Assembly (NCBI GenBank): GCA_017505415.1
Contig: JAFVPG010000347.1
Span: forward strand, 1 to 32,362
Length of the DNA: 32,362 nucleotides
Direction of reading: 5' to 3'
Source of the DNA: Lentisphaeria bacterium
GTDB lineage: Bacteria; Verrucomicrobiota; Lentisphaeria; Victivallales; Victivallaceae
Positions within the stretch are counted from its first letter, which is position 1. Every line of letters begins with the position of its first letter. Both the position numbers and the translations under genes were made by a program. Shown piece after piece: positions 9,781 to 28,692 of the stretch. Below the pieces are notes generated by a model. It did not search any database and was not told the DNA's origin. It saw nothing but the letters and a program-made list of their open reading frames with translations.

Positions 9781-11760
9781 ATGAGTAAATGGTTGGCTTT
9801 TTTGAATGGCGTGATCGTTGGTCCCTTCACTCAGGATAAAATTGAAAACATGTTCCATAACGGCGAAATAAGCGCCACAGATAAAATAAGTCGTGAAGGT
9901 GAACTTTTCTGGAAAACAATAAGTGATTTCCCCGAATTGCAGCATCTGGTAATACAGCAGGATAATTATTTCACTGCCGCTGACCCTGCTCCTCCTGCCG
10001 AACCGCATGGCGGTAAAAAAAATCTCAGCACTCTCTATTTCGGCAAAAAAGATGCAAATTCAAATACGCCTGCTGTTGCAATCGAACAGTCACTTAATGG
10101 CAGCGAAGTTCATTTCCGTTGTCCATACTGCCGTCAGAAATATATGCTTGATGCAGAAGAATTCAACGGACAGAGTGTTGATTGTCCCGGATGCAGTAAA
10201 GCATTTATACTGCAGAAAGAATTTGAACAGGATATGCCGGTTATGGAAGATTTTCCGGAATCTCCGGTCGCTCAAGAATCATTTCCTGCAGTTGAAAACG
10301 TGGATTTCACAGAAGATATTCCGGAGGGCGATATTACCTGCCCGCATTGCTGGAAGACTTTTTCAAAAGAAAACATCTGTTATATTTCAACTCATCCCGA
10401 TCTCATCGGCGATTCTATTGTCGGAGAATTTGAACAGAAACGTTTTGTTCCAACCGTTTATCATTCAAGCGGTCTGCCGCTGGATGCCAAAGGCATGCCA
10501 TGTACAGACATTGCCTGTCCGCACTGCCATCTGCGCATTCCTGCCTCCATTGTCGATCTGTCATCATTATATGTTTCCATTGCCGGGGCGCCGTCATCAG
10601 GTAAATCATATTTTCTGACTTCACTTGTTCATACCCTCCGCAGTACAATGCCAGTCAATAATTTTTCATTCTATGATGTTGATCCTATCATCAACAGTGT
10701 TCTGAATGATTATGAAGAGAAACTTTTTATGGCAATTGATTCAGATTCAGTCACTCTGCTGCCGAAAACTCAACAGACCGGAACTGAATATTCAAACCGT
10801 ATCGTTAAAAACAATATGGCTCTGGATTTGCCTAAACCCTTCATTTTCCGTCTTCAATCAATCAGCGCTTCCTCAAACGGAGAGATGACGGACCGCAATC
10901 TTATTTTCTACGACAATGCCGGTGAACATTTTCAACCGGGGGCAGATACAATAAACAACCCTGCTACCATACATCTCGCTCACTCCGATTCAATCGTTTT
11001 CATATTCGACCCCGTAAACGATGCCAATATGCGCAAAGAGTGCGACAAGCGGGACCCCCAGCTGGAAAATACAACTAAAGTAAACGACCAGACTACTCTT
11101 TTTGCTGAAATGGTCAACCGCATCCGCCGCCATGGCAACTTCAACATAAACGAAAGCTGCGATATTCCTCTTATCATCGCTGTCAATAAATATGACACTT
11201 GGAAGCAAAAATTGCCGAAAGATGTTGAAAATATCTCATTTTTCTGCGAAAATCAGGAAGACTTCACAACTGAACTCAATATGAATGCAATTCTTGACGT
11301 TTCCTTTGCCTTGCGTGAACTTATGCAGAGTGCCGCTCCGGCATTGGTTGCACAGGCAGAAGCATTCTTCAAACGGGTATTTTTCATACCGGTCAGCAGT
11401 TTCGGCTGTCTTGCCTGCAAAGATTCAATGGGCAATATCGGTATTATTCCCTCAAAAATCAAGCCGATTCTGGTAGATTTGCCGGTTTCTCTGCTGCTGG
11501 GCGAGAAAGGCATCATGCCCTGCAACAATACAAAACCGTCAGTTTCCGCATCACCTCTTGTTTGTAAAATCATTGATAACCAAATCGTTTTCAAACATCC
11601 GGTCAGTGGCAGACGTGTCTCCCTGCCTCCCATGTATTCAGAAGCCGTCCTTGAAATAGGCGGCAAAATATATAAAATGCCGCATCTTGCGGAAAATACT
11701 GCTGCTGCGAATGAAGTATTTTCTCCATCCGGCGGTTCAAAATCATCTGTTTGGGAGTAA
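9781..11760 (+). CDS. GYF_2 / zinc-ribbon / TRAFAC-like GTPase
   Basis: This 659-residue soluble protein combines three modules. Residues 2-52 (KWLAFLNGVIVGPFTQDKIENM) form a GYF_2 domain with its GPF core. Two zinc-ribbon regions follow: CPYC (114-117) with CPGC (about 134-137), and CPHC (187-190) with CPHC (246-249). A P-loop GTPase domain then has G1 GAPSSGKS (269-276), G3 DNAG (378-381) and G4 NKYD (469-472); NKxD indicates guanine specificity. The domain resembles TRAFAC-type GTPases of predicted bacterial conflict systems. A TTG at 9769 is in frame, but the ATG at 9781 is preferred although its AGAAAGG site is 13 bases away. It starts a ten-gene array and the next gene encodes a GTPase-associated (GAP1-like) protein, so it is probably the regulatory switch of the locus. 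Its target is unknown. Confidence 0.85.
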   Translation: MSKWLAFLNGVIVGPFTQDKIENMFHNGEISATDKISREGELFWKTISDFPELQHLVIQQDNYFTAADPAPPAEPHGGKKNLSTLYFGKKDANSNTPAVAIEQSLNGSEVHFRCPYCRQKYMLDAEEFNGQSVDCPGCSKAFILQKEFEQDMPVMEDFPESPVAQESFPAVENVDFTEDIPEGDITCPHCWKTFSKENICYISTHPDLIGDSIVGEFEQKRFVPTVYHSSGLPLDAKGMPCTDIACPHCHLRIPASIVDLSSLYVSIAGAPSSGKSYFLTSLVHTLRSTMPVNNFSFYDVDPIINSVLNDYEEKLFMAIDSDSVTLLPKTQQTGTEYSNRIVKNNMALDLPKPFIFRLQSISASSNGEMTDRNLIFYDNAGEHFQPGADTINNPATIHLAHSDSIVFIFDPVNDANMRKECDKRDPQLENTTKVNDQTTLFAEMVNRIRRHGNFNINESCDIPLIIAVNKYDTWKQKLPKDVENISFFCENQEDFTTELNMNAILDVSFALRELMQSAAPALVAQAEAFFKRVFFIPVSSFGCLACKDSMGNIGIIPSKIKPILVDLPVSLLLGEKGIMPCNNTKPSVSASPLVCKIIDNQIVFKHPVSGRRVSLPPMYSEAVLEIGGKIYKMPHLAENTAAANEVFSPSGGSKSSVWE

Positions 11761-11766
11761 TAAATC

Positions 11767-14328
11767 ATGCTGGAACTCGTTTTTACATCTGCTCAAGCGG
11801 GACTTATTCCCGGCCGTTCAGGATTCTGTTCAGTAGCCTGGACCGAGGGCATGCCTAAAAATTTGGTAACGATTCTTGAAAATATGAGCGGATATAACAT
11901 ACTGTATCTGCCCAATGACGCCAGAGCGGCAAACAATCCCGTCTGCCGTTCATTTCAGAAAATACGTTACGGTTCCAGAGAATTTTCCGTTATGAGTCGG
12001 ATCGCTTTTGCCGGTCTTGATTATACCAACAGAACCAACAAAATAGCACATCATATCGTTTTTGAGAATGAAAGCGAACTCGATGAATTACAGTACGGAG
12101 CGATTTCCGCTCTGCTCTGTGATGAGAATTTCTTCACCTCATGGGATGGCCAGCCAAGACTTCTTCCCCGCCGCAAACATCTGAAATCAGCACCCGTTGA
12201 CGGATATTTTGCCGGAAAATGGCAGAAAAATACCGGTCATGCTGAATGGGCAGGACATATTGCAAATACATTCATTTACAACCTCGATGACAAAAAAAAC
12301 AATTGTCTGTATCTCGAATATGATCATGAAGCTCATGGGGCGGATATTCCGGAAATGATTTGTGAAATCGTCCGCGTCCTCCCGAAAGAATTGCATAAAG
12401 AATTTACCTTCTCCACTTACTTCTCTGCTTCATCTTCTGATTCAGCATGTTTTTTCAATGCAGTACTCCCGAATTGTTCCATACTGCCTTCAATCAAGCG
12501 TTTCAAACCGGCATTCCTCATCTCTCTGACTGCCGGAACTCCGCTTCCCGCTGTTGAAAATACTCCCTGCGTTGAATCTGCCAAAACCGGCAACGCTCCG
12601 AAATTCGGTATTGATCCCGAAGAGGAGGAAGAAGAGGTAATTTACATGGACCTCTCTGCCCAAAATACAGCAGTTGAAGAATATGAAGAGCAAGCACCGG
12701 AAGACGAAGAAGTTATTGTCGCCCAAGCTGTTCCAGCTCAGTCCGCATTCAAATTGCAAATGCCGCGCAAAATCAATCATTCCCAGAAAAAAACAAACAA
12801 AACTCATAATCATAATTCCCCAAGCCACCCTGATAATCAGCGTCAGCGCATGATGATTTTTGCCGGTGCGGCAGCACTTGTAATACTTGCGATCGTAGTT
12901 TCAATACTTCTGTCGCTGAAAATATCGGCCAGAAAAAATGCCATTGCTGAAGCATCCGCTGATAATGAAGCTCACATTTTTACCGTTCAGGAACTACGGA
13001 AAGAAAAAAAATTAAAATCTGTTAACTCTGAAAAAAAACAGAAAAAGTCAGAGCAGAAAAATAACTCAGACAGCAAAAAAACACCTTCTGATACCGGAAA
13101 AGATAAAACTACTTCCGCTCCCAAAACACCTGCCCCAAAAAAGACAGTGACTCCCCCCAAGAAAAAAGCTGTCCCTCCGCCTCCGAAAGTTAAAAAAGAA
13201 ATCAAACTTTCAACAAAAGATAAATTCATGCTGCTGAAAAATTTTAACAGCGGAGAAAAATTGAATTTGCCTTTTGAAATAAAGAAAATTGAAATCCGGA
13301 TAAAAAATGAATGGTCAGATACTGTTTCAATCAGTAACCAAAAGGATTTTATCATCATAAAAAATGCAAAAGAGATCCATGTAATGCCGGTTGATATAAA
13401 TGCTTTCCCGCTGGCTCCGCGCAATGATGGTACCGGAGTTATGAAAATCATTGCCGAAAGCAAAAGTATCATTATTGAAGAAAACAAAGCAGATGATGAT
13501 GATTATGCCCCATTCAAAGAAATCATCAGTGAATTTATTTTTTATCATGCAAACGGCGAATGCCGCTGGCAGGTAAAGTGGGACAAAAGTTTTTTAACAC
13601 ACTTGAGCAAGGGACATATTAAAATAGACAATACGAACAGTATGAAATATGAAACGTCTGAAGATGAAGAATTATTTCTCAAATATATTGAATTTGAAAA
13701 TAATTCTTTTTCAGAATTCAACGATTTGAAAGAATGGGATACAAATGCACCTTATGTAAAAAATGCAATAAAATCAGGCAAAACTCCGTTCAAAGCAGAT
13801 ATTGATTTTATTTCAGACAAATATGATACAATCAAAGCCGGATTGCAAATTGCTGATGCAGCAAAAATCAATTTTAAACAACTGAAAAAAGAATTTGATA
13901 TTTTTTACAAACATTTACTCGCTGTTGATAATACAAAATTATCCAAAAAACTTAAACTGGATGCAAATTCTATGCTGACAGAAATCTATAATTTGTGGAA
14001 AACAAAAATGACCGAACGGGAAGGAAAATTCGGCGGAGATCAGCAAATCAAAGATGATATTAACAATACTTGTAAATTACATGAAAAGCTGTTGAATAAT
14101 TTTGAATCAGACAGAAAAAAACAGAATGAAGTCAACAAATTAGAGAGAAAAATAAATCGGCAGAAAAAAATGCAGGAAGATTTGAAAAAAGCTTTCAAAA
14201 AATATGAATTACCTGCAAAATTCTCAAAAATTTTAGAAAATTATGATTCTTTCTCTCAAGACGAGAGAGAAGAATTATGTAAGGAATTGGAGAAAAAAAT
14301 AATCAGAAAAGCCAAAGGGACAAGATAA
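11767..14328 (+). CDS. GAP1-N2-like membrane protein, GTPase partner
   Basis: The 853-residue protein opens with LELVFTSAQAGLIPGRSGFC, then VAWTEGMPKNLVTILENMSGY, which resembles the N-terminal domain (GAP1-N2 type) of GTPase-associated proteins found next to TRAFAC-like GTPases in predicted conflict systems. That region spans about residues 1-280. An acidic linker (about 285-315, with EEEEEEVIYMDL) and a basic linker precede one transmembrane helix (about 361-385). Beyond it lies a lysine/proline-rich stretch (about 430-480) containing AVPPPPKVKK, then a C-terminal domain ending in coiled coil. N-in topology places the GAP1-like part in the cytosol and the rest in the periplasm. It starts six bases after the GTPase gene. 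The domain call is by remembered pattern, not by a profile search. Confidence 0.68.
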   Translation: MLELVFTSAQAGLIPGRSGFCSVAWTEGMPKNLVTILENMSGYNILYLPNDARAANNPVCRSFQKIRYGSREFSVMSRIAFAGLDYTNRTNKIAHHIVFENESELDELQYGAISALLCDENFFTSWDGQPRLLPRRKHLKSAPVDGYFAGKWQKNTGHAEWAGHIANTFIYNLDDKKNNCLYLEYDHEAHGADIPEMICEIVRVLPKELHKEFTFSTYFSASSSDSACFFNAVLPNCSILPSIKRFKPAFLISLTAGTPLPAVENTPCVESAKTGNAPKFGIDPEEEEEEVIYMDLSAQNTAVEEYEEQAPEDEEVIVAQAVPAQSAFKLQMPRKINHSQKKTNKTHNHNSPSHPDNQRQRMMIFAGAAALVILAIVVSILLSLKISARKNAIAEASADNEAHIFTVQELRKEKKLKSVNSEKKQKKSEQKNNSDSKKTPSDTGKDKTTSAPKTPAPKKTVTPPKKKAVPPPPKVKKEIKLSTKDKFMLLKNFNSGEKLNLPFEIKKIEIRIKNEWSDTVSISNQKDFIIIKNAKEIHVMPVDINAFPLAPRNDGTGVMKIIAESKSIIIEENKADDDDYAPFKEIISEFIFYHANGECRWQVKWDKSFLTHLSKGHIKIDNTNSMKYETSEDEELFLKYIEFENNSFSEFNDLKEWDTNAPYVKNAIKSGKTPFKADIDFISDKYDTIKAGLQIADAAKINFKQLKKEFDIFYKHLLAVDNTKLSKKLKLDANSMLTEIYNLWKTKMTEREGKFGGDQQIKDDINNTCKLHEKLLNNFESDRKKQNEVNKLERKINRQKKMQEDLKKAFKKYELPAKFSKILENYDSFSQDEREELCKELEKKIIRKAKGTR

Positions 14329-14329
14329 T

Positions 14330-17300
14330 ATGGCTAAAATAAATGATATGATGAATGAAATCGAACAGCTCCTCAGCTGTAACGATTTAAGTAATAATCC
14401 GCACAGCAAAAAACTTGCCTCTGATTATGCCGCAATATGCCGTGACCTTAACAATGATTTGCGGGAGTGCAAAAGCCTTTTTCAAATGGGAGCATACGCT
14501 GAAGCAAGACGATTGAATAGCCGCAGTAAACCTCCTTTCACAGAACGGTTCCGCATCCTCAATTTTTCAGGACGTGACGAATGGATACGTTTATGCAATA
14601 TGTATTCATGGGACGTGCCGCCCGCACTCGACAGTGATACTGTAAGACAGCTCAATGAAAGCGGTGACCGGAAAGAAATTTCTATTGAAGAACTCCAAAA
14701 TCAATGGCGCAGGATAATCCGGGACGGCTCAGTTCGGGAAAAATTGATTCTTGCGCGGAAAATATATGCTATCGACAAATCTTCCGTCTGGAAATCAAAT
14801 CTGCTCAATATTGAGCGTACATGGGTCAATATGCTCAAAAAATCCGCCGAAAATGCTTTCAATGAAAAACGCATTGAAGAGCTGATTGAAATTTGCAATG
14901 AATTGAAATCTCCGGAACTCCTGCAGCCACAGCCTGAATCTTTTTTTGATAAGTATCAGAACGATATAAACGCATTCAAACGCTCAAAAACAGATGAGAA
15001 AAAAAATATACTGCTTGACGAAATCGCCGCAGATTATATGGCTCTTGACCTTGACAGTCTGGAAAAATCATTGGAAAAATGGGGCAATATGCAGGAAGAC
15101 CCCTTTTTCAGCGCCAGCAAAGAAGAGGAAAAACAGGTCAATGATGCCCGCAATTTCCTGCTGGAGAAACTCGCAGAACGCAACGCCAAAGAGGAATTCA
15201 GCCGTTTGCAGAGTCAACTGGAAATGCTGTTGAATGAAAACGGTGATCCCGAGGAGATCAACAAAGTTTATCATTCTTTGCAGCAGTTTGACAAGCCGAT
15301 AAAAAAACTGCTCGAAAACCGCATGGCTGAATTTTATGAAATGATGGAACTGGAAAGAAAACGCAAACATGTCCGCAGTTGTGTTTCATGGGGCGTTTCC
15401 GCTCTGGTTATTGCAATTGGTGTTTTTGCGACAGTACTGTATTTTCAGGCAGAAAAAGAACTGCGTGATGCCTGCGCAAGCATGCAGAAACACATCAAGG
15501 AAAATAATTACAGTCTCGCTCTCGAATTTTATAAATCAGTTCAGAAAAAAAGCTCTTCCATTGCCAATAAAGCCGCTTTGAAAGCTCTTCATGAAGAAGC
15601 TCAGAAAATGTATTCTGATGCCGTCATCGCAGAAAAAGAATTTACTGAAAAATGCGAACTGCTGGAAAAAAAATATTTCAATGATGAAAACATTCTGCAT
15701 CCTGCCGTCAGCAAAATCATGACCGAACTTGAAGAGCTTGCAGCAATCCTGCCCATTGAGAAAAAAAATATCAGAAGTCAGCTTCAGGTAAAATATGAAA
15801 ATCTCAAAACTGCAAAAATTGCTGCTAATGAAATCAAATTCCGCAATGAAATACTTAAACTGCAAAAAGAGTGGACCAATCTTTTCAACTCTTTCAACAA
15901 AGTCCCCGCACACGATAATTTGAAGAAAAAAAATATTCTTGAACGCAGAGGTACTGCATTGTTGAATGAATACAAATCTAAAATCTCTGCTGAATTATAT
16001 GCTGAATGGGAGAAAAACCTTGCTGACAACACTGTTTCTTTCGGAAAATATCAGAAAAACCGTGAAGAGATGATGAGCAAAACAAAAAATCTTTATCAGC
16101 CTGTTTCAGCAGAACAATATTTCCTCGCTTTGCGAGGTGATGTAAATATTTCATCTGAAACCGCAAATGATTTCAATAAAGCTCTGCGCCAGCTCGTTAT
16201 AGATGAACCGATCTTCCGTATCATCAACAATGTCTATGATGAAACGAAACTGAATGCAATAGCCAATCAGTATACTGCAAATCCTTTCTGCCGTGAATTG
16301 AACCGCAGAAATAAAGCTGCTCACAATACTGCTGCATTCCGCAGCAATCAGAAAAATATATTTGATTCATACAAAAAGCTTATCATGCCGCAGCATGCGG
16401 TAAAAGAAATAGTATTGTATGACAAAAATCAACAGTATCACTTTTATTTCAATAATCCCGACAAAGATATTGATATTGAAAAAACATGGGACAACAAAAA
16501 AATAAAATCTTTGCAGTTTTTCTTTCTGCACAGTGCAAATAATATCAAACACTCAGCTGTATTCAAGGTCAATGATGAAAAAATTGCAGAAAAAATCGCA
16601 GAGTTGAAAAAGGAACATGCACAAAAAAACAGTTCTCTCAAAAAGAAAAACAGAAAACAATTCGTTCCTCCTCCTGCTAACGAATTGTTTAAATATCTTG
16701 AATTCATATTTATGCCGAATCAGAAATACGGAACTCTGCCGTCAAAAATGATGTTGAAAGATTATGAAGTTCTGTCCGACCTGACCAAACTCCGTACCGC
16801 CGCACAAAATACTGTTTTACAGGCAACTGCAGACAACTTGCAAAAAGGCGATATTGTTTTGATCCTTAAATCAATTATCCGTGTTGCAGAAGATAATACA
16901 ATCACCAACATTTATGCAAAAGTCAATATCATCCGCGCCATGCTCGCTTTCCTGCCGCAGGACAAGCAATGGATTTATCATAATTCATTACAGCCGCTGA
17001 ATGAACTTCTGAGAAAATATTCAGCCGGAGAACGTGCATGGTGGCAGAATCCGGCCGCATCATTCAAATATCCTGAAGATAAAGTGAATTTCCCGAAAGA
17101 ATTCTCTAAACTTGATTTGAGAAAAATATTTGCCGGAATTATATTGAGTGAAAAACTTTCCCATGTGATCTGTAAATATCCTCCGCTTCCATGCGGTATA
17201 TTTTTCCGGGAAGGCAACTTCTGGAGACTGCATTCATTTCAGTTCAATTTGACGGATTACAACACTTTGTTCATCGTATCATCCGCGGCAAATCCGCAGG

Positions 17301-17563
17301 ATAACAAAATGCATGCCTTTTCTGCCATTGATTTTGTAAAGCCTGTTCCGCAGGAAAAATTGCCGCAAGATATTGCATCCGAACTTTATAATGGGCAGCT
17401 TGTTTACTTTGTCTCTTCTCTTGATTCCTGGAAACTCGGTTTCAAATCTGCAATAGAAGAATTGAAGAAAGAAAACTTTTCCGTTCCCGAAAATGCAGAT
17501 GGTATTGTATGGCCGGAATACTGGCCTCAAAACAAAAGAAATTTCAAGGAGTTGATGAATTGA
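14330..17563 (+). CDS. Large bitopic coiled-coil protein, unknown function
   Basis: I do not recognise this 1077-residue protein as a family. It has a mostly helical, charged N-terminal part (1-345), one transmembrane helix at about 350-370 (SWGVSALVIAIGVFATVLYF), and about 700 further residues. Of these, 370-560 are rich in E/K heptads and probably coiled coil, and the last ~350 residues look globular with many aromatics. No catalytic motif or signal peptide is visible. With N-in topology the long C-terminal part would be in the periplasm, as in its neighbours. It starts one base after the upstream stop. Its own TGA overlaps the TTG start of the protease gene, so production of the two is probably coupled. 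It may be a scaffold spanning the envelope. Confidence 0.75.
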   Translation: MAKINDMMNEIEQLLSCNDLSNNPHSKKLASDYAAICRDLNNDLRECKSLFQMGAYAEARRLNSRSKPPFTERFRILNFSGRDEWIRLCNMYSWDVPPALDSDTVRQLNESGDRKEISIEELQNQWRRIIRDGSVREKLILARKIYAIDKSSVWKSNLLNIERTWVNMLKKSAENAFNEKRIEELIEICNELKSPELLQPQPESFFDKYQNDINAFKRSKTDEKKNILLDEIAADYMALDLDSLEKSLEKWGNMQEDPFFSASKEEEKQVNDARNFLLEKLAERNAKEEFSRLQSQLEMLLNENGDPEEINKVYHSLQQFDKPIKKLLENRMAEFYEMMELERKRKHVRSCVSWGVSALVIAIGVFATVLYFQAEKELRDACASMQKHIKENNYSLALEFYKSVQKKSSSIANKAALKALHEEAQKMYSDAVIAEKEFTEKCELLEKKYFNDENILHPAVSKIMTELEELAAILPIEKKNIRSQLQVKYENLKTAKIAANEIKFRNEILKLQKEWTNLFNSFNKVPAHDNLKKKNILERRGTALLNEYKSKISAELYAEWEKNLADNTVSFGKYQKNREEMMSKTKNLYQPVSAEQYFLALRGDVNISSETANDFNKALRQLVIDEPIFRIINNVYDETKLNAIANQYTANPFCRELNRRNKAAHNTAAFRSNQKNIFDSYKKLIMPQHAVKEIVLYDKNQQYHFYFNNPDKDIDIEKTWDNKKIKSLQFFFLHSANNIKHSAVFKVNDEKIAEKIAELKKEHAQKNSSLKKKNRKQFVPPPANELFKYLEFIFMPNQKYGTLPSKMMLKDYEVLSDLTKLRTAAQNTVLQATADNLQKGDIVLILKSIIRVAEDNTITNIYAKVNIIRAMLAFLPQDKQWIYHNSLQPLNELLRKYSAGERAWWQNPAASFKYPEDKVNFPKEFSKLDLRKIFAGIILSEKLSHVICKYPPLPCGIFFREGNFWRLHSFQFNLTDYNTLFIVSSAANPQDNKMHAFSAIDFVKPVPQEKLPQDIASELYNGQLVYFVSSLDSWKLGFKSAIEELKKENFSVPENADGIVWPEYWPQNKRNFKELMN

Positions 17564-18783
17564 ATCAGCAAAGATTTTTTTATCTGAAACAGCAAAACCG
17601 CATATACGGCCCGTTTCCGGCTGCTAAAATACTGGCAATGTACCGGAGCAAAACATTATCTGCGGCAGATCAAATTTCTCCTGACAAAATAAATTGGAAA
17701 AATGTCAATGATTTTTTCAATCCGCCACGTCCGAAAGTACAGAAAATACAGCCGGTTCAGACAGTTGCCGTGTACAATAATGATCCCCGGAATACTTATG
17801 TTACAGCCGCACCTGCTGTTCCATCAGAAAAAAAGATAGAATATATCAAAGTCACTCCTGTTCCCCAGGCGCATCCTGTTCAGCAAAAGGCTTCTTCCGG
17901 AATGCTGATCATGATATTTGTCCTGTTTTTCCTGCTTGTAACAGCGGGAGGAATTTTCTTTTATTTCGCAGGTCAAAAAGATTCAGGAAATTCATCCGGC
18001 AAAACAAGTGACTCATGGACATCTGTTATTGAAAAAAATAAACATGCAGTCGCACTTGTCGTACTGAATGTCACCTTGAAAAACGGAACCATTCACAAAA
18101 TTCCCATGGGAACAGCATGGGCTTTTGCAGATAATACTTTTGCCACCAACGCTCATGTGATTCAGGGAGTCCATAAAAACGGCATTGAACTCCTCAAACA
18201 ACATTCTGATATTATTTCAGATATGGAAATATCTCTTATTCTGAATGAAACAAAAACTTCTTATCCGGTAAAATCATTCCGGGTGCATCCGGAATATGAT
18301 ACTGCCAAAGATGCAGATTTCGCACTTCTTTATACTGACAAAGTAACTCATAAACTGCAAATTGCCGATGACAGAGAATTGCATAATATCAAGCAGGGAA
18401 CTCCGATCGCATTTCTCGGCTTCCCGATGGAGGGATTGTCAAACGGCAATGTCAATACCGCTAACCCGATGGCTTCTCTGCAAACCGGCAATATCGTTGC
18501 CATATCTAACGCAGAATACGGCGACAGCGGTTTTGCAGGAAACACTACAATACGGCACAATCTGCCGACTGTCGGCGGCGCCAGCGGCAGTCCGATCTTC
18601 AACAGAAACGGCAAGGTTATAGCAATCCTGTTTGCCGGTCACATGAAAATTGAATTCGATAAATCCGGCAGAATGGTCAGAACCCCAATGGCAGCAATGA
18701 TAAACTTCGGTATCAGAATCGACCGTATGAAACAATGCTTCAATGCCAAAGAAATTTCAACCGCAAATCTATGGACCCGCTGA
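17560..18783 (+). CDS. GYF_2-TM-trypsin-like serine protease
   Basis: This 407-residue protein has an N-terminal GYF_2 domain (about 2-50, FFYLKQQNRIYGPFPAAKIL), a proline-rich linker, a transmembrane helix (about 115-137) and a C-terminal trypsin/HtrA-like protease domain (about 150-395). The catalytic triad is visible: His199 in ATNAHV, Asp253 in DADFALL and Ser342 in GGASGSPIF. The protease should face the periplasm with GYF_2 in the cytosol. The start is a TTG at 17560, inferred because AAGGAG lies eight bases upstream and homology to GYF_2 begins there; this TTG overlaps the previous stop codon as TTGA. No PDZ domain is seen, so it is not a standard DegP. It is the only clear hydrolase in the locus besides the GTPase and a likely effector or signal-cutting component. 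Confidence 0.85.
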   Translation: MNQQRFFYLKQQNRIYGPFPAAKILAMYRSKTLSAADQISPDKINWKNVNDFFNPPRPKVQKIQPVQTVAVYNNDPRNTYVTAAPAVPSEKKIEYIKVTPVPQAHPVQQKASSGMLIMIFVLFFLLVTAGGIFFYFAGQKDSGNSSGKTSDSWTSVIEKNKHAVALVVLNVTLKNGTIHKIPMGTAWAFADNTFATNAHVIQGVHKNGIELLKQHSDIISDMEISLILNETKTSYPVKSFRVHPEYDTAKDADFALLYTDKVTHKLQIADDRELHNIKQGTPIAFLGFPMEGLSNGNVNTANPMASLQTGNIVAISNAEYGDSGFAGNTTIRHNLPTVGGASGSPIFNRNGKVIAILFAGHMKIEFDKSGRMVRTPMAAMINFGIRIDRMKQCFNAKEISTANLWTR

Positions 18784-18786
18784 TAT

Positions 18787-19758
18787 ATGTCAAAATTTTA
18801 TTACATAAAAAGAAATGATAATATAACTGGACCATTCTCTGAAATACAGTTGAAAAATATGTTTGTAAAAAACATTCTTGACAATAATACTCTTATTTCT
18901 GACGATCGCATAAAATGGTCTACTTTCTCCTCCGTTTTTGTCCCGAAAGAACCGGAAACTGTTTATATGGAACTGCCGGTAAAACCGGTAGTTGAAGAAC
19001 CTGCCACAGTCTATCTTGAGCTGCCGCCAAATAAAAAAGAAATAATTCAGGAAGAAGAGGAAATAACAGAGGAAGATGTTCCTGAAGAAGAGGAAAACGC
19101 AGAACCGGAAGATGATGTCATGCCGGATGTCATACCGGATCCGGTTTATATTACTTTCAGCATGATATGGAATGCCCCTGCTTATATACGCAACATGCAT
19201 TACATGTACAGCTTGGAGGAGAGCCGCAGCAGTGCGATGAAATTTACATTATCAGTCATATCATTGTCAGTTGTGCTGGAAATTTTTGTCTGCGGAATGC
19301 TTTTCTTTTTTGCCGACAGAAATTTATGTATTGCCGGTATAACTTCAATTTTTTTGACTGCGGTTATGGCAATTCTGATACTGTTGTTGGAAAATCTCTG
19401 TATTACCTCAATAGTCAAATATGAAAAAATGCTGAATCATTTTCAGCTGTTCATGCAGATAAATCTTTTCGCTTTTTCTGCATTCGTCTGCGGCATGCCG
19501 CTGGCAGGGCTTGCGGCTGCCAATACAGCAGTATCTCCGGCATTGAAAGCTGTATGTATTGCTTATGCCGCACTGACCGGCACTGCATGTATGATAAATA
19601 TGGGGGCAGGAATCGTTCATGTTTCCAAAAAATTTTTCAAAATGCACAATTTCAGCAGTATTTTTGCAGCGATATTGAATATTGTTCTATGGTTTTTAAT
19701 GCTTCTTACCGGATGTAAAATCACAGAATTTCTGAAAAATGCACTTTTTGAAAAATGA
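18787..19758 (+). CDS. GYF_2 multi-pass membrane protein
   Basis: The 323-residue protein begins with a third GYF_2 domain (about 2-52, FYYIKRNDNITGPFSEIQLK). It continues with a highly acidic linker (about 55-120) and ends in about five transmembrane helices (152-323), a layout reminiscent of Yip1/DUF-type bacterial membrane proteins. In the linker a short motif occurs twice, TVYMELP and TVYLELP, and a similar IYMDL is present in the GAP1-like protein. No catalytic residues are evident. It starts three bases after the protease gene. It may hold the cytosolic complex at the membrane through its GYF_2 domain. Function is inferred from context only. Confidence 0.75.
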   Translation: MSKFYYIKRNDNITGPFSEIQLKNMFVKNILDNNTLISDDRIKWSTFSSVFVPKEPETVYMELPVKPVVEEPATVYLELPPNKKEIIQEEEEITEEDVPEEEENAEPEDDVMPDVIPDPVYITFSMIWNAPAYIRNMHYMYSLEESRSSAMKFTLSVISLSVVLEIFVCGMLFFFADRNLCIAGITSIFLTAVMAILILLLENLCITSIVKYEKMLNHFQLFMQINLFAFSAFVCGMPLAGLAAANTAVSPALKAVCIAYAALTGTACMINMGAGIVHVSKKFFKMHNFSSIFAAILNIVLWFLMLLTGCKITEFLKNALFEK

Positions 19759-19762
19759 TTTC

Positions 19763-19791
19763 TTGACAAGGTGATAATACAGGATTAAATT
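19763..19791 (+). promoter_or_regulatory. Candidate internal promoter before the ExbB-like gene
   Basis: A perfect TTGACA (19763-19768) and TAAATT (19786-19791, four of six) are separated by 17 bases. They lie in the only sizeable gap of the locus (65 bases), just before the channel gene, which has a GGGAG ribosome-binding site. The ExbB/ExbD/vWA half could therefore be transcribed separately. Confidence 0.5.
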
Positions 19792-19823
19792 AAAAAATAT
19801 TAAAAAATAACAGGGAGTAAAAA

Positions 19824-20687
19824 ATGGAATACGGAAAAAAACTTTCATGGGTACAGTCTGACATTGAAAATATTTGCGGATTCAACAGCAAAAAGTTTAC
19901 ACGTGTCAATATTGTTTTCGCCTTTATCATCGGACTTTTGCTGACTGCACTTTTTTACGGGGTTTTATTTCCGTTCAGAGGCAGAGGTTTTCAGATGATC
20001 GACATGTTTTTTCACGGCGGAGCAGAAAACAGATCTTCAATTCCGTATTATACAGTTTTTCTCGCAATGTTTTCATTCGCCATATTGTTCCTTAAAAACA
20101 TGAAACTCAAAGTTCAGCAGAAGGCTCTCAAAGTCAACATTATGCCAATAGACAGCAGTTTTTCACTCACCCCGGTCACTGCCCGTGAAATACTTGATAC
20201 AATGTATGAAAAAGTCGATATTCCTGCCAGATTCATACTTTTCGACCGTGTTGAGCGGGCAATTTCCAATCTGAAAAACCTCGGCAGTGTTTCTGCCGTT
20301 GCCGAATGTCTGACCAACCAGGCAAATAATGATGACAATTATCTTTCAAGTTCATACACTATTTTGAAAGGTTTTATCTGGGCGATACCGGTTCTCGGTT
20401 TTATTGGAACGGTTATCGGTCTTGCCGATGCTGTCGGCGGCTTCGGCAAAGTCGTTTCTGAAGGTGCGGATATTGAACAGCTCAAAGCATCCCTCGGCGG
20501 AGTGACCGGAGGTCTTGCTACCGCATTTGAAACCACACTTATTGCCCTTGTCCTTGCAATGTTTGTCCAGCTTTTCATGACTTTCACTTTGAACAAAGAA
20601 GAATTGTTCCTCGATGATTGCGCAGATTATTGCCACCGCAACATCATTTCAAAAATGAAAACCATCAACCTTCAGGATGAAGAATGA
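19824..20687 (+). CDS. MotA/TolQ/ExbB-family proton channel protein
   Basis: The 287-residue protein has four hydrophobic segments (about 29-50, 72-94, 179-205 and 231-256). The signature IPVLGFIGTVIGLADAVGG, followed by GGVTGGLATAFETTLIALVLAM, is the MotA/TolQ/ExbB core, including the pore-lining threonines in GTV and FETT. This family forms pentamers around an ExbD/MotB-type dimer and uses ion flow to do mechanical work in the envelope. The large loop between helices 2 and 3 is cytosolic in the family. Its last codons overlap the next gene by four bases (ATGA), and two ExbD/MotB-like genes follow, so a complete motor module is present. The family is clear; the ion used is not. Confidence 0.88.
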   Translation: MEYGKKLSWVQSDIENICGFNSKKFTRVNIVFAFIIGLLLTALFYGVLFPFRGRGFQMIDMFFHGGAENRSSIPYYTVFLAMFSFAILFLKNMKLKVQQKALKVNIMPIDSSFSLTPVTAREILDTMYEKVDIPARFILFDRVERAISNLKNLGSVSAVAECLTNQANNDDNYLSSSYTILKGFIWAIPVLGFIGTVIGLADAVGGFGKVVSEGADIEQLKASLGGVTGGLATAFETTLIALVLAMFVQLFMTFTLNKEELFLDDCADYCHRNIISKMKTINLQDEE

Positions 20688-21547
20688 GCAAAAAAGACGA
20701 TTCTCCTGCAATCTCACTTTTTTCCTTTCAGGATATTATCACCTCCATTACAGGTATCATGTTTCTGGTGGTGCTGCTTTTGCTCCTCCTGATTTTTGAG
20801 GGGACTCCCGTCAAAACTCCGCCAAAACAGTCCGCTGAAGATAAACAGGAAATGCAAAAAATGGCTGAAGAGATAAAAAAAATCAGCGGGGAAATACAAA
20901 AATATAAAGAATCCAGAGAGAAACTTGTCAAACAACTGCGCGAATATCAGAAAATGCCGCTTTCAAAAATAGAAGATAGAAAAAACGAGCTTGAACAGCG
21001 TATTCAGCAGCTTACTGAAAAAAATATCAATACCAAAAATTCCATTGTTATTGCCAAACAGCAGCAGACAAAAAATATTGAAGAGATAAATCAGGCAGAA
21101 AAAGACCTCAAAGATACAGAAAAAAATATTGTCTCTGCTTCTGCTGAAAATAAAAAGAACTCTGAAAAAATCAAGGAATTGAAAAAACGTATAGAAACTG
21201 TCAAACAGACAGTCGGTTTCTCCGTAGAAGAATCTTCCGACAAAAAACCTTTGCTGGCAGAATTTACCGCAGACGGTTTCATGGTACTTGATTTCAGTAC
21301 CGACAAAGTTTATGACCTGCGTGACCGGAATGCAGATTTGAACAGCAAAGCAAAGAAATTCGTTGAGTGGGTCAAAACATGCGACAAAAATAATTATACA
21401 CTCTCAATCATTCTCGGTCCTTCAAAACTTAAATACTGGGATGCTATCTCTGAAGAACTCAGAAAAATCGGCATCACTCACGGACTGGAACTGCACCCGA
21501 AAGATGATATGAGTATTTTCTCTGCAGAAATGCGAGGTGAAAAATGA
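20684..21547 (+). CDS. ExbD/MotB-like motor protein 1
   Basis: This 287-residue protein has a short cytosolic N-terminus, one transmembrane helix (about 16-40) and a long coiled coil (about 55-175), then a periplasmic domain (about 190-287). The segment FQDIITSITGIMFLVVLLLL places an aspartate (D17) at the entry of the helix, just as the proton-carrying Asp of MotB/ExbD lies in its helix. This supports a role as the partner of the preceding ExbB-like channel. The periplasmic domain is not a recognisable OmpA-like peptidoglycan-binding domain. It overlaps both flanking genes by four bases, indicating tight coupling. Confidence 0.75.
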   Translation: MSKKDDSPAISLFSFQDIITSITGIMFLVVLLLLLLIFEGTPVKTPPKQSAEDKQEMQKMAEEIKKISGEIQKYKESREKLVKQLREYQKMPLSKIEDRKNELEQRIQQLTEKNINTKNSIVIAKQQQTKNIEEINQAEKDLKDTEKNIVSASAENKKNSEKIKELKKRIETVKQTVGFSVEESSDKKPLLAEFTADGFMVLDFSTDKVYDLRDRNADLNSKAKKFVEWVKTCDKNNYTLSIILGPSKLKYWDAISEELRKIGITHGLELHPKDDMSIFSAEMRGEK

Positions 21548-22488
21548 GCCAGAAACGCGACTTTGAATCAAGTTTGGAATTGCTGCTTGATACCATGTGC
21601 AACTCTTTCGGAGGCGTCATGTTCATTGCAATTTCTCTCATTATTGTACTTTCAATGACCTCAAAAGTCAAAGAGGCTGTCACGGATAATTTCCAGAACC
21701 TCGAAGAAATGCAGACCAAAGTTGAGGAACTCAAAAAAGAATTCACTCAAATCCAACTCGATACAAAACAGATACAGCATGCTCTCGAAATATTCAAAAA
21801 TGACCCGCGATTAAAATATCTGAAAGATATTGTTTTACTCGAAGATAAATTGAAAAAAATCGAAATGGAAGACAAAATGCTCTCCGTCGAACTTGAAGTG
21901 CAGAACAAAAAAAACAGTGAACTTGTCAATAAAAAAACTCTCATTCAAACCGAACTTACAAAAAAACAACTCAAATATCAGAAAATTGCTGCTGAAAACA
22001 TCAAACAGGAACAGGAACTCAAATCTCTCAATGAAGAACTGAAACGTACTGCTTCTGAACATATTACATTCAAAACTATGTCCCCGACGCAAAAAGCTCC
22101 CTATTACCTGATCGTTTTCAACTCGAAAATCTGGCGTGTCGGACCGGACAAAAAAGGAGATCCGCCGCACAGTGACGTAAATTATGCCAAAGCCCGACAG
22201 GATGGACAGGAATATATAATCTGCACTATCCGTGACCTCAATTCAGGAGTCCCCCTGATCGAAAACGGCAGAATATCTTCGGAGGCTTATGCTCTGCTGC
22301 AGAATATTCCTCAAGACCGCTTCCCGTCCTTAAGTATACATTCAGATTCTGTCGAAGATTTCTGCAAATTCAGAGAGGAACTTAAAAAGAATAACACCAC
22401 ACACTCTGTTGACACATTCTTTGAATCACTGGGAAATAAATTTATCTATTTCTATACAAATACGAAAGATCATTATAATGCATATTGA
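21544..22488 (+). CDS. ExbD/MotB-like motor protein 2
   Basis: This 314-residue protein is built like its upstream neighbour: a short cytosolic N-terminus, one transmembrane helix (about 17-40), a coiled coil (about 45-175) and a periplasmic C-terminal domain. ELLLDTMCNSFGGVMFIAIS carries an aspartate (D16) at nearly the same distance from the N-terminus as D17 of the first protein, consistent with a proton-carrying residue. The two proteins are clearly different in sequence, so the motor may contain a heterodimer in place of the usual ExbD homodimer. The LDTMCNxFGG style is one I associate with ExbD-like proteins of planctomycetes and relatives. The next gene starts 11 bases before this one's stop. 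Confidence 0.75.
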   Translation: MSQKRDFESSLELLLDTMCNSFGGVMFIAISLIIVLSMTSKVKEAVTDNFQNLEEMQTKVEELKKEFTQIQLDTKQIQHALEIFKNDPRLKYLKDIVLLEDKLKKIEMEDKMLSVELEVQNKKNSELVNKKTLIQTELTKKQLKYQKIAAENIKQEQELKSLNEELKRTASEHITFKTMSPTQKAPYYLIVFNSKIWRVGPDKKGDPPHSDVNYAKARQDGQEYIICTIRDLNSGVPLIENGRISSEAYALLQNIPQDRFPSLSIHSDSVEDFCKFREELKKNNTTHSVDTFFESLGNKFIYFYTNTKDHYNAY

Positions 22489-23569
22489 TAAATTCAAAAA
22501 AAATCCTTACCTTGCGGCAGCAGTTTTTTTTCTGATACTGTTCTGCTCATCTCTGCTTTTCGCACTTGCCGTAAAAATTAAAATCACCCCGGAACCTGAC
22601 GGCTTCGGAGACGGCAAAGGGCCGAATATTTTCGGCAAAGGCGGCGACGGCAATGGAACAGGAGACGGAAGCGGAGACGGATCGCATTCCGGAAGTTTCA
22701 AAGGAGTCGGAGACTCCGAAGGAAACGGCAAATCCTCCGGCGATAGTAAAAAAGATTCAGAATTGAAAAACGAAAATACCGCAAAAAATCAAAAAGGTCA
22801 GAAAAATTCCGCCCCTGAAAGCAAAACTGACGGCAAAGATTCTGAAAATGCTGACAACTCAAAACAATCTGAAACTCCTAAAATACAAAAACTCAGAGGC
22901 GCCAAAATATATGCAGATTCTGACAAAGCTAAAAAAGTAAAGAAAAAAAAAGAAACAGAGATTGATCTTGACGACTCCGCAGAGCAAGGCAGCAAAGGCT
23001 TCACCTCCGGAGGCAGAAGTGTTTTCCGTATCAAAAGAAACAAAAATATCCTCTTTATCGTTGATATTTCCCCGTCAATGGATGCTGAAACCGCAGAAAG
23101 ACTCACCCGCATTACCATTTTGAAAGATCAACTCATACATACGATAAAAAAGCTTAACAAAGAAAAATCAAAAGGCTTGTACAGCATTCTCGCATTCAGC
23201 AGTAATTGTTATTCATATCCCGATAAAAAAAGCAGTAAACAACTGAAATTCTCCTCTGCCGCAGATATAAATTCCACAGAAAAATGGATCAGTCAAATGG
23301 AAAAATTACCACGCGCAGGGACTTACCTTTACAAGGCAATTTCAACTGCTCTGACAATGATCAATCAAAACGGTATAAAAGTGGATATAATATTCATTCT
23401 CACCGACGGAGAACCGAATGACGAACATCAAACTGATGTGTATTTAAAATTGCTGAGCAGAGAATTACCGGAAAATATAGTTATCAACACTATTTCAATC
23501 GGAACTTCTTCTCCGCTTTTGCAGGAGATAGCCAAACAGCATAAAGGCAAATATGACGAATATAAATAA
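22478..23569 (+). CDS. TonB-like anchored vWA-domain protein
   Basis: The 363-residue protein has a basic N-terminus and a single signal-anchor helix (about 9-32). A glycine/aspartate/serine-rich region (about 40-90) and a charged linker (to about 175) follow, then a von Willebrand factor A domain (about 190-363). The MIDAS metal site is complete: DISPS (D196, S198, S200), T282 and D310 in TDGEP. The layout of helix, flexible linker and C-terminal binding domain, placed right after ExbB/ExbD genes, is that of TonB/TolA, with vWA replacing the usual C-terminal domain. The start ATG at 22478 overlaps the previous gene; an upstream in-frame ATG lies deep inside it and is less likely. It probably binds a partner protein in the periplasm in a metal-dependent way. 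Confidence 0.8.
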   Translation: MHIDKFKKNPYLAAAVFFLILFCSSLLFALAVKIKITPEPDGFGDGKGPNIFGKGGDGNGTGDGSGDGSHSGSFKGVGDSEGNGKSSGDSKKDSELKNENTAKNQKGQKNSAPESKTDGKDSENADNSKQSETPKIQKLRGAKIYADSDKAKKVKKKKETEIDLDDSAEQGSKGFTSGGRSVFRIKRNKNILFIVDISPSMDAETAERLTRITILKDQLIHTIKKLNKEKSKGLYSILAFSSNCYSYPDKKSSKQLKFSSAADINSTEKWISQMEKLPRAGTYLYKAISTALTMINQNGIKVDIIFILTDGEPNDEHQTDVYLKLLSRELPENIVINTISIGTSSPLLQEIAKQHKGKYDEYK

Positions 23570-23583
23570 TGAAAGGATATATT

Positions 23584-24387
23584 ATGAAAAAAATTTGTAA
23601 AATGCTTAAAACCGTACTCTTCGCAGCAGTATGTATGACTGTTTTGCCTGCTTCGGCAGAGTTTAGTTACAAAGATTGAGTCGTGCCTTTTTACTCCACC
23701 CAGCGCATTGCACTCACTTTCATGGGCAAAGAGGAAATTTTCAAATTCAGTTCAAAAAAAGTTACCTGGCGGAATAATATTAAAACTGATCTCGAAAAAG
23801 CAAAACTTTATAAATACAATTCCGACCGTGTTGACATGCTGGATGATTATCTCTTCGCTATTTCAGAACAAAGTTCCACTGAATGGGAAGATTTTGACTC
23901 TGCCATAGATGAAATAAATACAAAATCAATTGAACCGGCTGTAAACAGAAATGACCTTATCTGGGCAATAGCAATGGCTTACAGATTGAATAACTTTTGC
24001 AAAGGCTTCATCTATAAAAAACTCAGTGATACCGATGCCGTAAAAGAAGAACTTGCCACTGTTCTCGATTCAATAAAAGAAAAAGTACGTGAACGTTATG
24101 AAGATGATGTGCTGAAAAAACTTACAGCTGAATACAAAAAACTTTTCCCGAACAGAAGACTGCTCATAGATCAATCCCTGCCGTCAAATTTTAATGCCTG
24201 TGTCAAGCTGCAGAATGAATGTCTGGCCGCCTATTTGAACTTGAACAAATATTCAGCCGCCGCAGAATTTGAAGAATGGGGCGCAAATATGCTCAACTTC
24301 CTTCTGCTTGAATATGATGTACTCTTTATCAAAGAATTTGAAACACGCCTGAAAAACTATACTGCCAATTTCAAAATAAAAAAATAA
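23584..24387 (+). pseudogene. Secreted helical protein with in-frame TGA (broken gene or readthrough)
   Basis: A gene with a strong AAAGGA site six bases before ATG 23584 encodes a clean signal peptide (MKKICKMLKTVLFAAVCM...PASA, cut after residue 25) and then EFSYKD. At codon 32 (23677-23679) there is a TGA, after which the same frame stays open for 235 codons, starting VVPFYSTQRIAL. The downstream part is helical and charged and unrecognised. A GTG at 23683 or ATG at 23710 could start the second part, but neither has a ribosome-binding site. Tryptophan (TGG) would fit the context. Explanations are a recent nonsense mutation, a base-call error, or UGA readthrough. It is the last gene of the locus and, if expressed, its product is periplasmic. 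Confidence is in the broken-frame observation, not in loss of function. Confidence 0.75.
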
Positions 24388-24435
24388 GGTACTGCACTTT
24401 CCTTCGGGGAGACTCCACAGTACCGTCTCATTTTT
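24388..24435. terminator. Bidirectional hairpin terminator ending the locus
   Basis: A seven-base inverted repeat GGTACTG (24388-24394) / CAGTACC (24418-24424), with an inner CTTTCC-TTCG-GGGAGA arm carrying a TTCG tetraloop, is followed by TTTTT (24431-24435). On the other strand it is followed by an A-tract-derived T run (24378-24387 reversed). It sits between the secreted-protein gene and the convergent ABC ATPase gene, so it can serve both. Confidence 0.8.
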
Positions 24436-24446
24436 GATTTCTGCTG

Positions 24447-26856: not shown

Positions 26857-28692
26857 TTATTGTGCATCTGTTTTGGAATCAAGATAATATTCCAGAAATT
26901 CAGCCATTACCGGAGCGCAGGTCATACCGCCGGATTGCCCATCCTGAATTACAAGAGCAGCGGCATAAGTTCTGTTATTGTGTTTCACAAATGCAATAAA
27001 CCATGTATTCTGCCGGCGATTATTTTTTGAACCGATCTCAGCAGTTCCGGTCTTGCCGTAAATGGTATAATTTTCAAGTTTTCCATTACGTCCTGAACCG
27101 GTTGGCGAATTAACTACTCTGAACATGCCCTCTCTTACTGCTTTGAATCCGGCTTCTGAAGCAGGAATCACAGAAGCAACGGATGATTTACGTTGATACA
27201 GGATATTGCCCTGATGATCAAGTATTGAGTTCACAAGATGCGGACGGAAAACCTTTCCGTTATTGGCTATTGCCGCAGTATACAATGCCGCCTGAAGCGG
27301 GGAAATGGTTATCAAGCCCTGACCGATAGAGATAAGTGCGGTATCAAAATCTGTCCAGCGCGATGTTTTCTGAATGCGGTATTTATTCTGAACCGTAGGC
27401 AGAAGACCGGACGCACATGGCAATTCAAGGGCAGGGGCAGTCCCGAAACCGGCAGCTTTCATAAAATCACAGATTTTTTCCCGTCCGATTTTCAAACCTT
27501 CCTCAATAAAATAATCATTGCAGGACTTTTCCAATGCACCATAAATATCCATGTCACGATGTCCTCCGAAACGATAAGAGGTGCAATTTATTTTTGCATC
27601 ACCGATATGCGTTGAACCATCGCAGAAAACTGTACTTTCAGGAGCAGTTCCATTTTCAAGGATGGCAAGACCTATAAGCACTTTGATAATTGATCCCGGA
27701 GTGTAAGTCCCCGCAAACGCCTTTGCCAGAAGAGGTGCAGTCTTGTCTTTCACAAGTTTATTATAATAATCCTGTTCTACTCTCGGAGAAAAACGGCTCA
27801 AATCATATCCAGGCGAAGATGCCATTGCCAGCACATCGCCATTATCAGCATCGACGAGAACCAAAGCTCCTGTTTCATATTTGAGAAGTTCCTGCGCTTT
27901 TTTTTGGGCATTATACTCCAGATTGAGAACGACATGATTGCCATGCAGAGGAGATATTTCCTGCACCAGAGAATGATGTACATAACCAAGATTATCCACC
28001 TGCACCAATGAATAACCGGGTTTGCCCCGCAAACCGCGCAATGCAGGATATTCTTTTGAATTTATTCTGTCAAAAACTTTTTCCAGACCTGCTTTTCCCT
28101 CATAATCGGATATATAATAAGAAAATTCCTTGCGGTCAGCCGCATCGGCGGGATCACCTTTGCGGGTATAACCGACAAGATGTGCCGCCCAGTCTTTTTG
28201 CGGATAGACACGGACAGAATCTATTTCCAAAGCCCATCCTCTGTGATCGGCAAGATGGTCATTTATTATTGCCCGCTCTTTTTCATTCAGGTCGGAAAAA
28301 ACTTTTAACGGCAGTCCCGGATACCAGTTCAAATGCCTTTCAATATCTGCTCTTGTAAATTTATTTTCTCTGCCAAGCAGTAATGCCATATAAATAATTT
28401 CATTTATTACTGCCTCTATTGTTTTTTCTTTTCCCGGACGGCGAATTTCATGGATATAAAGCAAGAGATCAAATATCATACGGTTATCCGCAATGACTTT
28501 GTAGTCTGCACTGTAAATTCTGCCGCGTCTTGCAGGAATACGGATCTTGCGTACTGACTGGTGCAGGATTTTATTATTATATCCCTGAAAATTTGCCTGT
28601 TTGCAAAAAAGTTTGACAGCAAGTACCAGCGTCAGCAATATTAATATGATACCGATAATAAAAATCCGTTTCCTGATATGAATATCAACCAT
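26857..28692 (-). CDS. mrdA: Penicillin-binding protein 2 (elongation transpeptidase)
   Basis: PBP2 crosslinks peptidoglycan during cell elongation with RodA and MreC/MreD. The protein of about 611 residues has an N-terminal anchor helix (about 9-29), a dimerisation/pedestal region with RIPARRGRIY (51-60), and a transpeptidase domain with all three motifs: SIIK (334-337), SCN (390-392) and KTG (547-549). The start at ATG 28692 is chosen over an upstream in-frame codon because GGGGAGGAG stands just before it. It overlaps the preceding mreD-like gene by eight bases. It is the last gene of the alaS-STAS-LolA-mreD-mrdA cluster. Confidence 0.93.
   Translation of the reverse strand: MVDIHIRKRIFIIGIILILLTLVLAVKLFCKQANFQGYNNKILHQSVRKIRIPARRGRIYSADYKVIADNRMIFDLLLYIHEIRRPGKEKTIEAVINEIIYMALLLGRENKFTRADIERHLNWYPGLPLKVFSDLNEKERAIINDHLADHRGWALEIDSVRVYPQKDWAAHLVGYTRKGDPADAADRKEFSYYISDYEGKAGLEKVFDRINSKEYPALRGLRGKPGYSLVQVDNLGYVHHSLVQEISPLHGNHVVLNLEYNAQKKAQELLKYETGALVLVDADNGDVLAMASSPGYDLSRFSPRVEQDYYNKLVKDKTAPLLAKAFAGTYTPGSIIKVLIGLAILENGTAPESTVFCDGSTHIGDAKINCTSYRFGGHRDMDIYGALEKSCNDYFIEEGLKIGREKICDFMKAAGFGTAPALELPCASGLLPTVQNKYRIQKTSRWTDFDTALISIGQGLITISPLQAALYTAAIANNGKVFRPHLVNSILDHQGNILYQRKSSVASVIPASEAGFKAVREGMFRVVNSPTGSGRNGKLENYTIYGKTGTAEIGSKNNRRQNTWFIAFVKHNNRTYAAALVIQDGQSGGMTCAPVMAEFLEYYLDSKTDAQ

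Follow-up and report, generated by a model that had tools for sequence, protein, structure and literature searches.

Conserved linkage of a DO-GTPase/GAP1-N2 core to an ExbB/ExbD-type motor in a Lentisphaeria bacterium and its relatives

Bacterial systems that combine a DO-GTPase with GAP1 (GTPase-associated protein 1) were defined by Kaur et al. 2020 (PMC7159879), who noted planctomycete GYF proteins fused to trypsin or transmembrane (TM) regions and predicted that DO-GTPase/GAP1-N2 systems are conflict systems. In Myxococcus xanthus, the GTPase MglA has effectors in gliding (among them AglR and GltJ) and in pili (SgmX/FrzS; PMC12288465). AglR/AglQ/AglS is a proton-driven motor (PMC11444678), and SgmX is a tetratricopeptide repeat (TPR) protein that is bound by MglA-GTP and acts on type IV pili (PMC7519303). 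We analyzed a 32,362-nucleotide stretch of DNA (the window) from a Lentisphaeria bacterium (contig JAFVPG010000347.1), in which ten plus-strand genes (g1 to g10, positions 9781-24387) join a DO-GTPase/GAP1-N2 core to one ExbB-type and two ExbD-like proteins (ExbB/ExbD/ExbD'). On balance, we read this locus as an envelope machine that uses a membrane-proximal GTPase to switch an ion-driven motor.

The ten genes belong to one system, and its constant part consists of g1, g2, and g3. Two features are new here: g3 is a third constant core partner beside the GTPase and GAP1, and the ExbB plus two-ExbD motor is a distinct subfamily tied to the GTPase core.

Linkage of the GTPase core to the motor

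A set of 387 genomes drawn from the phylum was searched for GAP1-N2, which was matched in 72. Beyond the window, 78 matches were taken, each within a stretch of at most 20 kb (a weak match in genome G283 was omitted), giving 79 GAP1 loci with the window. Locus profiles made from the window proteins and their hits identified g1 in 73 of these loci, g2 in 77, g3 in 63, g6 in 30, and g7/g8 in 30. The ExbB and two ExbD-like genes lie on the GAP1 strand, in most cases downstream of both g3 and a GYF gene. The gene run of 16 motor-less loci reaches the edge of the stretch, so a motor may lie beyond it there.

The reverse set consisted of the best 80 ExbB loci from titled genomes, retrieved with the ExbB profile alone as query. 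These loci span Lentisphaerota/Victivallales, Planctomycetota, Verrucomicrobiota, and Desulfobacterota (Desulfamplus), and hold g3 in 70 cases, g2 in 53, and g1 in 49. Where at least 8.5 kb of upstream sequence was available, g1 or g2 was present in 47 of 50 loci (the exceptions are L172, L178, and L189). The ExbB of 17 of the 80 was already part of the profile; without these, 33 of the remaining 63 loci had enough upstream sequence, and 30 of the 33 hold both g1 and g2. A sequence-only reading of the window had taken the GTPase/GYF half and the ExbB/ExbD half to be one system and had named a neighborhood survey beforehand as the test that could refute this; both counts bear it out. Gene order varies: the motor precedes the GTPase in L063, separates g2 from g3 in L039, and is divergent in L176, yet the parts stay together throughout. 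The full set occurs in Victivallis vadensis DSM 14823 (L111), and the set is also found in Botrimarina colliarenosi Pla108 (L158). Because the same genes occur together in distantly related bacteria, one machine is probable. The set was also seen on a contig titled Syntrophus aciditrophicus (L126), with an ExbB 59% identical to that of the window; this is probably a mislabeled bin.

An ExbB profile (A1) built from the 30 ExbB rows found beside GAP1 was used to scan the 387 genomes, with at most six candidates per genome scored and those with E ≤ 1e-15 kept. The scan separated 37 close matches (at least 356 bits) from the remainder (next best, 231 bits). Thirty of the 37 lie within 15 kb of GAP1-N2, a proximity that says little alone because the profile was built from those 30. 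The contigs of the other seven end near the set, and five of the seven show g3. Of the 73 weaker matches, not one is within 15 kb of GAP1-N2, and the genomes that carry them are not associated with GAP1-N2 either (Fisher P value 0.86). Four loci inspected from this weaker tier (L197-L200) have a stand-alone ExbB of 439-473 amino acids and two ExbD-like genes, with no GTPase core nearby; they represent a sister motor of a related three-gene type.

Ten motor-less loci have a PilM-like gene directly after g3. None of the ten has g6, and no locus carries both the motor and the PilM-like module. Seven of the ten PilM-like genes were scanned with Pfam; five matched PilM_2 above cut-off (best E 5.7e-17), one matched weakly (E 0.0014), and one had no match. 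In L061, a 744-amino-acid open reading frame (ORF) after g3, in the wrong frame, also had no Pfam match. One or two single-TM proteins follow the PilM-like gene in most of the ten loci. Examples with a PilM-like gene carrying a TM region and two single-TM genes after GTPase/GAP1/g3 are L055:10072-13344, L070:10059-13458, and L048:10295-13715. One genome (G079) holds both types, at L048 and L050.

Motor and PilM-type loci are separated on the GTPase tree by a single change (30 motor loci against 8 PilM-type loci), and none of 500 shuffles was as low; this tree was made by a quick method from 72 rows with long-branch warnings, 34 unlabeled rows were not counted, and two PilM-type loci had a g1 that was too short. 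The PilM-type loci come from two families of one class and may therefore reflect few events. Phylum labels on the g3 and g6 trees of titled loci change seven times each against a least possible four, which indicates that at phylum depth the genes have mostly been inherited vertically, apart from some transfers or mislabeled bins. That the same core takes either a motor or a PilM-like module suggests that unlike envelope machines share a control unit.

Core, motor, and optional genes

All ten ORFs are present in the window, as the sequence-only reading had it. It had described the junctions as mostly overlaps or gaps of 1-15 bases; neighboring genes do overlap or lie up to 15 bases apart, except at g5-g6, where the gap is 65 bases. 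Domain E values were obtained from a Pfam profile scan of all ten proteins, and the same proteins were scanned with PADLOC and NCBIfam. The families that had been assigned by eye were recovered for g1, g2, g4, g6, and g9. No Pfam family was found above cut-off for g3, g7, g8, or g10 (coiled-coil matches of g7/g8 were sub-threshold only), and the GYF_2 match of g5 (E 2e-4) is below cut-off. There was no Pfam match to FNIII in the ten proteins, but the periplasmic portions of g2 and g3 have no family assignment.

By domain content, g1-g2 and the GYF proteins g4-g5 are of a known kind, the DO-GTPase/GAP1-N2 system, whose function is predicted only. The GTPase gene g1 (9781-11760, + strand) encodes GYF_2 (E 1.6e-7), one or more zinc ribbons, and DO-GTPase2 of the TRAFAC class (E 1.7e-8). 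The motifs GAPSSGKS, DNAGE, and NKYD are present, confirming those listed before (the second as DNAG). Counting residues from the TTG ORF at 9769, the P-loop (G278/K279/S280), Y381/D382/G385/E386, K474/D476, and Cys 191/194/250/253 are conserved in 0.97-1.00 of 102 rows, with Walker B E386 in 1.00 and the four zinc-ribbon cysteines in 0.99-1.00. A second zinc ribbon near residues 112-142 is below the Pfam cut-off. A family-built GYF profile matches each of g1, g4, and g5, so the GTPase itself carries a GYF domain, which the sequence-only reading had omitted. GYF was detected in 99 of 159 loci (the 79 GAP1 loci and the best 80 ExbB loci).

Downstream of the GTPase gene, g2 (11767-14328, +) encodes GAP1-N2 (E 2.4e-18) and GAP1-M (E 3.8e-6), both above cut-off, followed by a TM helix at about residue 360 and then a tail in the periplasm. 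Hydropathy places a TM helix beyond residue 250 of GAP1 in 30 of 30 motor loci, none of 10 PilM loci, and 26 of 36 others. A match of g2 to GltJ in NCBIfam (E 0.0021) falls in a low-complexity stretch and was rejected. A short VYMEL-like motif common to g2 and g5 was also discarded, as it was not seen in relatives and its counts do not exceed those of shuffles except for two in the window's g5.

The third core gene, g3 (14330-17563, +), encodes a bitopic helical-repeat protein of ~1000 amino acids; its profile matches the 63 GAP1 loci and 70 ExbB loci given above. An AlphaFold2 model (mean predicted local distance difference test [pLDDT] 83.6) has a helical cytosolic part (residues 1-345), a TM helix near 348, a helical periplasmic part, and beta-rich domains. 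No PDB entry matched this model at E ≤ 0.001, and the best Foldseek match (E 0.0024) is helical-repeat background. Designed proteins were rejected as relatives (Z up to 8.8, with root mean square deviation [rmsd] over 20).

The motor begins with g6 (19824-20687, +), which has four predicted TM helices and matches Pfam MotA_ExbB (E 2.8e-10; 40.5 bits against a cut-off of 22.9). Sequence similarity makes it a member of the MotA/TolQ/ExbB channel family, in a distinct subfamily. Thr196 and Thr238, in the last two TM helices, occur in 1.00 of 93 rows. There was no match to PDB sequences up to E 0.1.

Two ExbD-like genes follow. The protein of g7 (20684-21547, +) has an FQDI motif, Asp17 in its TM helix, a coiled coil, and a C-terminal domain that may be TolR-like; that of g8 (21544-22488, +), aligned with g7, has Asp16 in its TM helix and a coiled coil. 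The TM aspartate is conserved in 0.99 of 86 g7 rows (D17) and 0.97 of 89 g8 rows (D16), and g8 G23 in 1.00 of 89. An AlphaFold2 model of g7 (pLDDT 89.6) combines a TM helix with long helices and a beta-alpha domain at the C terminus. That domain resembles TolR (5by4; rank 4 with Z 7.7 and rmsd 3.4 over 84 residues; Foldseek rank 10, E 0.019) and ExbD (8vgd; Z 6.4, rank 49), though no more closely than it does unrelated folds. Matches of the g7/g8 coiled coils to SMC, myosin, and similar proteins were dismissed as composition matches.

The remaining genes are accessory or optional, apart from g5 (18787-19758, +), a GYF protein with four predicted TM helices. The accessory gene g4 (17509-18783, +) encodes GYF, a TM helix, and a trypsin-like protease (NAHV, DADF, GGASGSP; Trypsin_2 E 9.4e-17). 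A trypsin domain occurs in 9 of the 159 loci, at seven distinct places, so the protease is an optional fusion on a GYF protein. A TM-anchored von Willebrand factor A (vWA) protein with a Gly-rich linker is encoded by g9 (22478-23569, +; VWA E 6.9e-8), whose start has been corrected to ~22478 from that given in the sequence-only reading. It is optional, since it was found in 24 of the best 80 ExbB loci and 13 of the 79 GAP1 loci. The TM histidine (SHLS motif) is absent from the window's g9, and among 43 N-termini of relatives, compared by eye and unaligned, a few have a His near or in the TM helix and no conserved one was seen. Vicinal to ExbB/ExbD genes in two loci (L137:3461-4621 and L173:5309-6568), vWA-profile proteins start with a GYF-like stretch; such a fusion would join the GYF and vWA parts.

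Also optional is g10 (23584-24387, +), a probably exported protein found in 10 of the best 80 ExbB loci and 12 of the 79 GAP1 loci. Its ORF covers the 3' portion of a longer frame, which opens with a signal-peptide-like stretch at 23584 and contains an in-frame TGA at 23677-23679, a feature missed earlier. The TGA may indicate a broken gene or a sequencing error; a relative in L058 (185-991) is uninterrupted at 268 amino acids. A g10 homolog sits upstream of g1 in ten relatives. The terminator that had been placed after g10 was recovered as a hairpin followed by a T-run (24388-24434; -14.2 kcal/mol, z -2.4 by folding), a probable terminator (24388-24436, +) that is not among the sites listed by a consensus terminator scan of the window. 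Farther downstream (26857-29952), a penicillin-binding protein (PBP) transpeptidase gene (26857-28734) adjoins genes for a 183-amino-acid protein with four TM helices and a 239-amino-acid protein with one, perhaps MreD and MreC to judge from the gene order.

Competing explanations and a proposed mechanism

The locus could be a conflict or phage-defense system, in which the GTPase core would sense an invader and the motor, the protease, or the membrane protein would depolarize or damage the envelope. This agrees with the published conflict prediction for DO-GTPase/GAP1-N2 (PMC7159879), with the patchy spread of GAP1-N2 in the phylum (72 of 387 genomes), and with PADLOC matches of the g4 protease to RT-Protease_XI (E 3.1e-13) and LmuA (E 1.1e-8) and, weakly, of g6 to ZorA (best E 9.9e-6), Zorya being a defense system with a MotA/MotB-like motor. 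We nevertheless consider it unlikely. Scans of the ten proteins with Pfam, PADLOC, and NCBIfam detected neither a nuclease nor a toxin domain; the absence of a nuclease had already been remarked. Zorya's other parts, ZorC/ZorD (or ZorE), are missing among the ten proteins (PADLOC) and among ten flanking proteins scanned with Pfam. Eight of those flanking proteins are housekeeping or metabolic, among them an FKBP isomerase, MnmE, TrmO, the PBP transpeptidase, and an alanyl-tRNA synthetase, and two have no family. The seven phylum-label changes on the g3 and g6 trees, close to the least possible four, also weigh against defense, as does a protease confined to 9 of 159 loci. The sequence-only reading had taken the protease or the channel as the effector and had pointed to Zorya; neither a periplasmic protease as a general effector nor Zorya-type defense is upheld. 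The envelope or surface transport role that it gave as an alternative now fits best.

A Tol-Pal-like maintenance role, with the motor tethering the outer membrane or moving lipids and the GTPase tuning it to the cell cycle or membrane stress, strikes us as similarly improbable. The TolR-like C-terminal domain of g7 is in keeping with it, vWA proteins beside tolQ/tolR pairs in the Planctomycetes-Verrucomicrobia-Chlamydiae (PVC) group have been proposed as force transducers (PMC12204202), and a DO-GTPase beside psp genes has been predicted to act in membrane stress (PMC11237479). Against this, two other MotA_ExbB proteins of the window's genome score far better than g6 (109 and 108 bits against 41), the vWA protein lacks the TM histidine and is optional, and the restricted occurrence of GAP1-N2 is unlike that of a general maintenance system. 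That the two halves are neighbors by chance or through shared regulation and have separate functions is very improbable. The three-gene motor without a nearby GTPase in the four weaker-tier loci speaks for separate functions; against them stand the linkage in 47 of 50 and 30 of 33 loci, which spans phyla and persists when order and orientation change, and the one-change separation on the GTPase tree.

Several observations count against the GTPase-switched motor that we prefer. In 39 of 72 GAP1 genomes the core lacks this motor (some loci are cut by contig ends), which also favors separate halves and means that not every core includes the motor. The TolR and ExbD structural scores of g7 are equaled by unrelated folds among the folds compared, and Pfam ExbD matches none of 58 g7/g8 rows. 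Genes after the PilM-like one have only sub-threshold matches to PilO (E 0.0041) and T2SS-M (E 9.5e-4), leaving their PilN/PilO likeness below cut-off. Finally, the g1 GYF (E 0.16) and the GYF profile (E 0.12, below several unrelated chains) match 7z3c ("Adventurous gliding motility protein X") too weakly for a claim of kinship.

The gene content, motifs, conservation, linkage, and exchange of the motor for a PilM-like module are observed features from which a mechanism for a GTPase-switched motor can be proposed. In this scheme, g1 would bind GTP and act via its partner GAP1-N2 protein (g2) and the bitopic g3, both of which are predicted to reach from the cytosol to the periplasm, and the GYF proteins g4 and g5 would tether the GTPase core to the membrane. 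The active core would then engage the g6 channel, in which g7 and g8 would sit as a heterodimer. Ion flow via Thr196/Thr238 of g6 past the TM aspartates (Asp17/Asp16) would turn g7/g8, whose coiled coils and TolR-like domains would pass force to peptidoglycan or the outer membrane, in some lineages through the optional TM-anchored vWA protein. The control logic would be that of Myxococcus MglA/MglB acting on AglR/AglQ/AglS. Direct GTPase-motor contact, the direction of control, stoichiometry, ion drive, and cargo are what we infer. Rather than killing, the machine most likely serves a process at the surface or envelope (moving or organizing adhesins, polymers, or the outer membrane).

More tentatively, and at somewhat less than even probability, DO-GTPase/GAP1/g3 may be a general bacterial switch unit that plugs into either an ExbB/ExbD/ExbD' motor or a PilM-type platform; the PVC group and some Desulfobacterota would then have a surface motor gated by a GTPase, with an origin separate from that of MglA/Agl. 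If so, predicted conflict systems become a switchable mechanical device, the PVC group has a GTPase-gated surface motor of its own alongside that of Myxococcus, and the two named strains above (L111 and L158) offer 7-8 genes as a defined set for testing.

Comparison with described systems

The resemblance to Zorya (ZorAB) lies in a MotA-like channel and a partner with one TM helix and a coiled coil; the window differs in its short channel protein, its two ExbD-like subunits, and its GTPase core. The vWA force-transducer cassettes described in the PVC group (a TPR gene, a tolQ-like gene, two tolR-like genes, and vWA; PMC12204202) share with the window one channel, two different TolR-like genes, and a TM-anchored vWA protein downstream. 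In contrast to those cassettes, g9 has no TM histidine (SHLS) and a GTPase core is attached; the word GTPase does not occur in that paper.

Systems of the GAP1-N2 type described by Kaur et al. 2020 are alike in having DO-GTPase2 with a zinc ribbon, GAP1-N2/GAP1-M directly downstream, a GAP1 protein with a C-terminal TM helix, and GYF fused to trypsin or TM regions. What sets the window apart is its dedicated motor (ExbB/ExbD/ExbD') and a bitopic protein as a third constant member of the core. ExbB, ExbD, MotA, TolQ, and proton have no occurrences in the main text of that paper, supplements aside (PMC7159879), and no paper bringing a GYF domain and ExbB together was found in the open-licence literature (supplements were outside the search).

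MglA/MglB of Myxococcus xanthus, with the Agl-Glt (gliding) and Nfs (spore coat) machineries, offers a GTPase switch combined with one ExbB-type and two ExbD-type proteins. Its switch also governs type IV pili via a TPR effector, much as the window-type core is joined by a motor in some loci and by a PilM-like module in others. The GYF domain and zinc finger of GltJ (AgmX) reportedly bind MglA/MglB. Victivallis vadensis, which carries a full set, is not known to be motile. The GTPase of the window belongs to another family, and its GTPase and motor genes share one operon. Roadblock (PF03259, MglB-type) has no matches in the window's genome (84.5% complete), so the resemblance to the MglA/MglB machine is one of logic, not membership. 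The closest functional parallel to the locus is the control that MglA/MglB of Myxococcus exerts over the AglRQS gliding motor and type IV pili, a parallel between systems that are not homologous as wholes.

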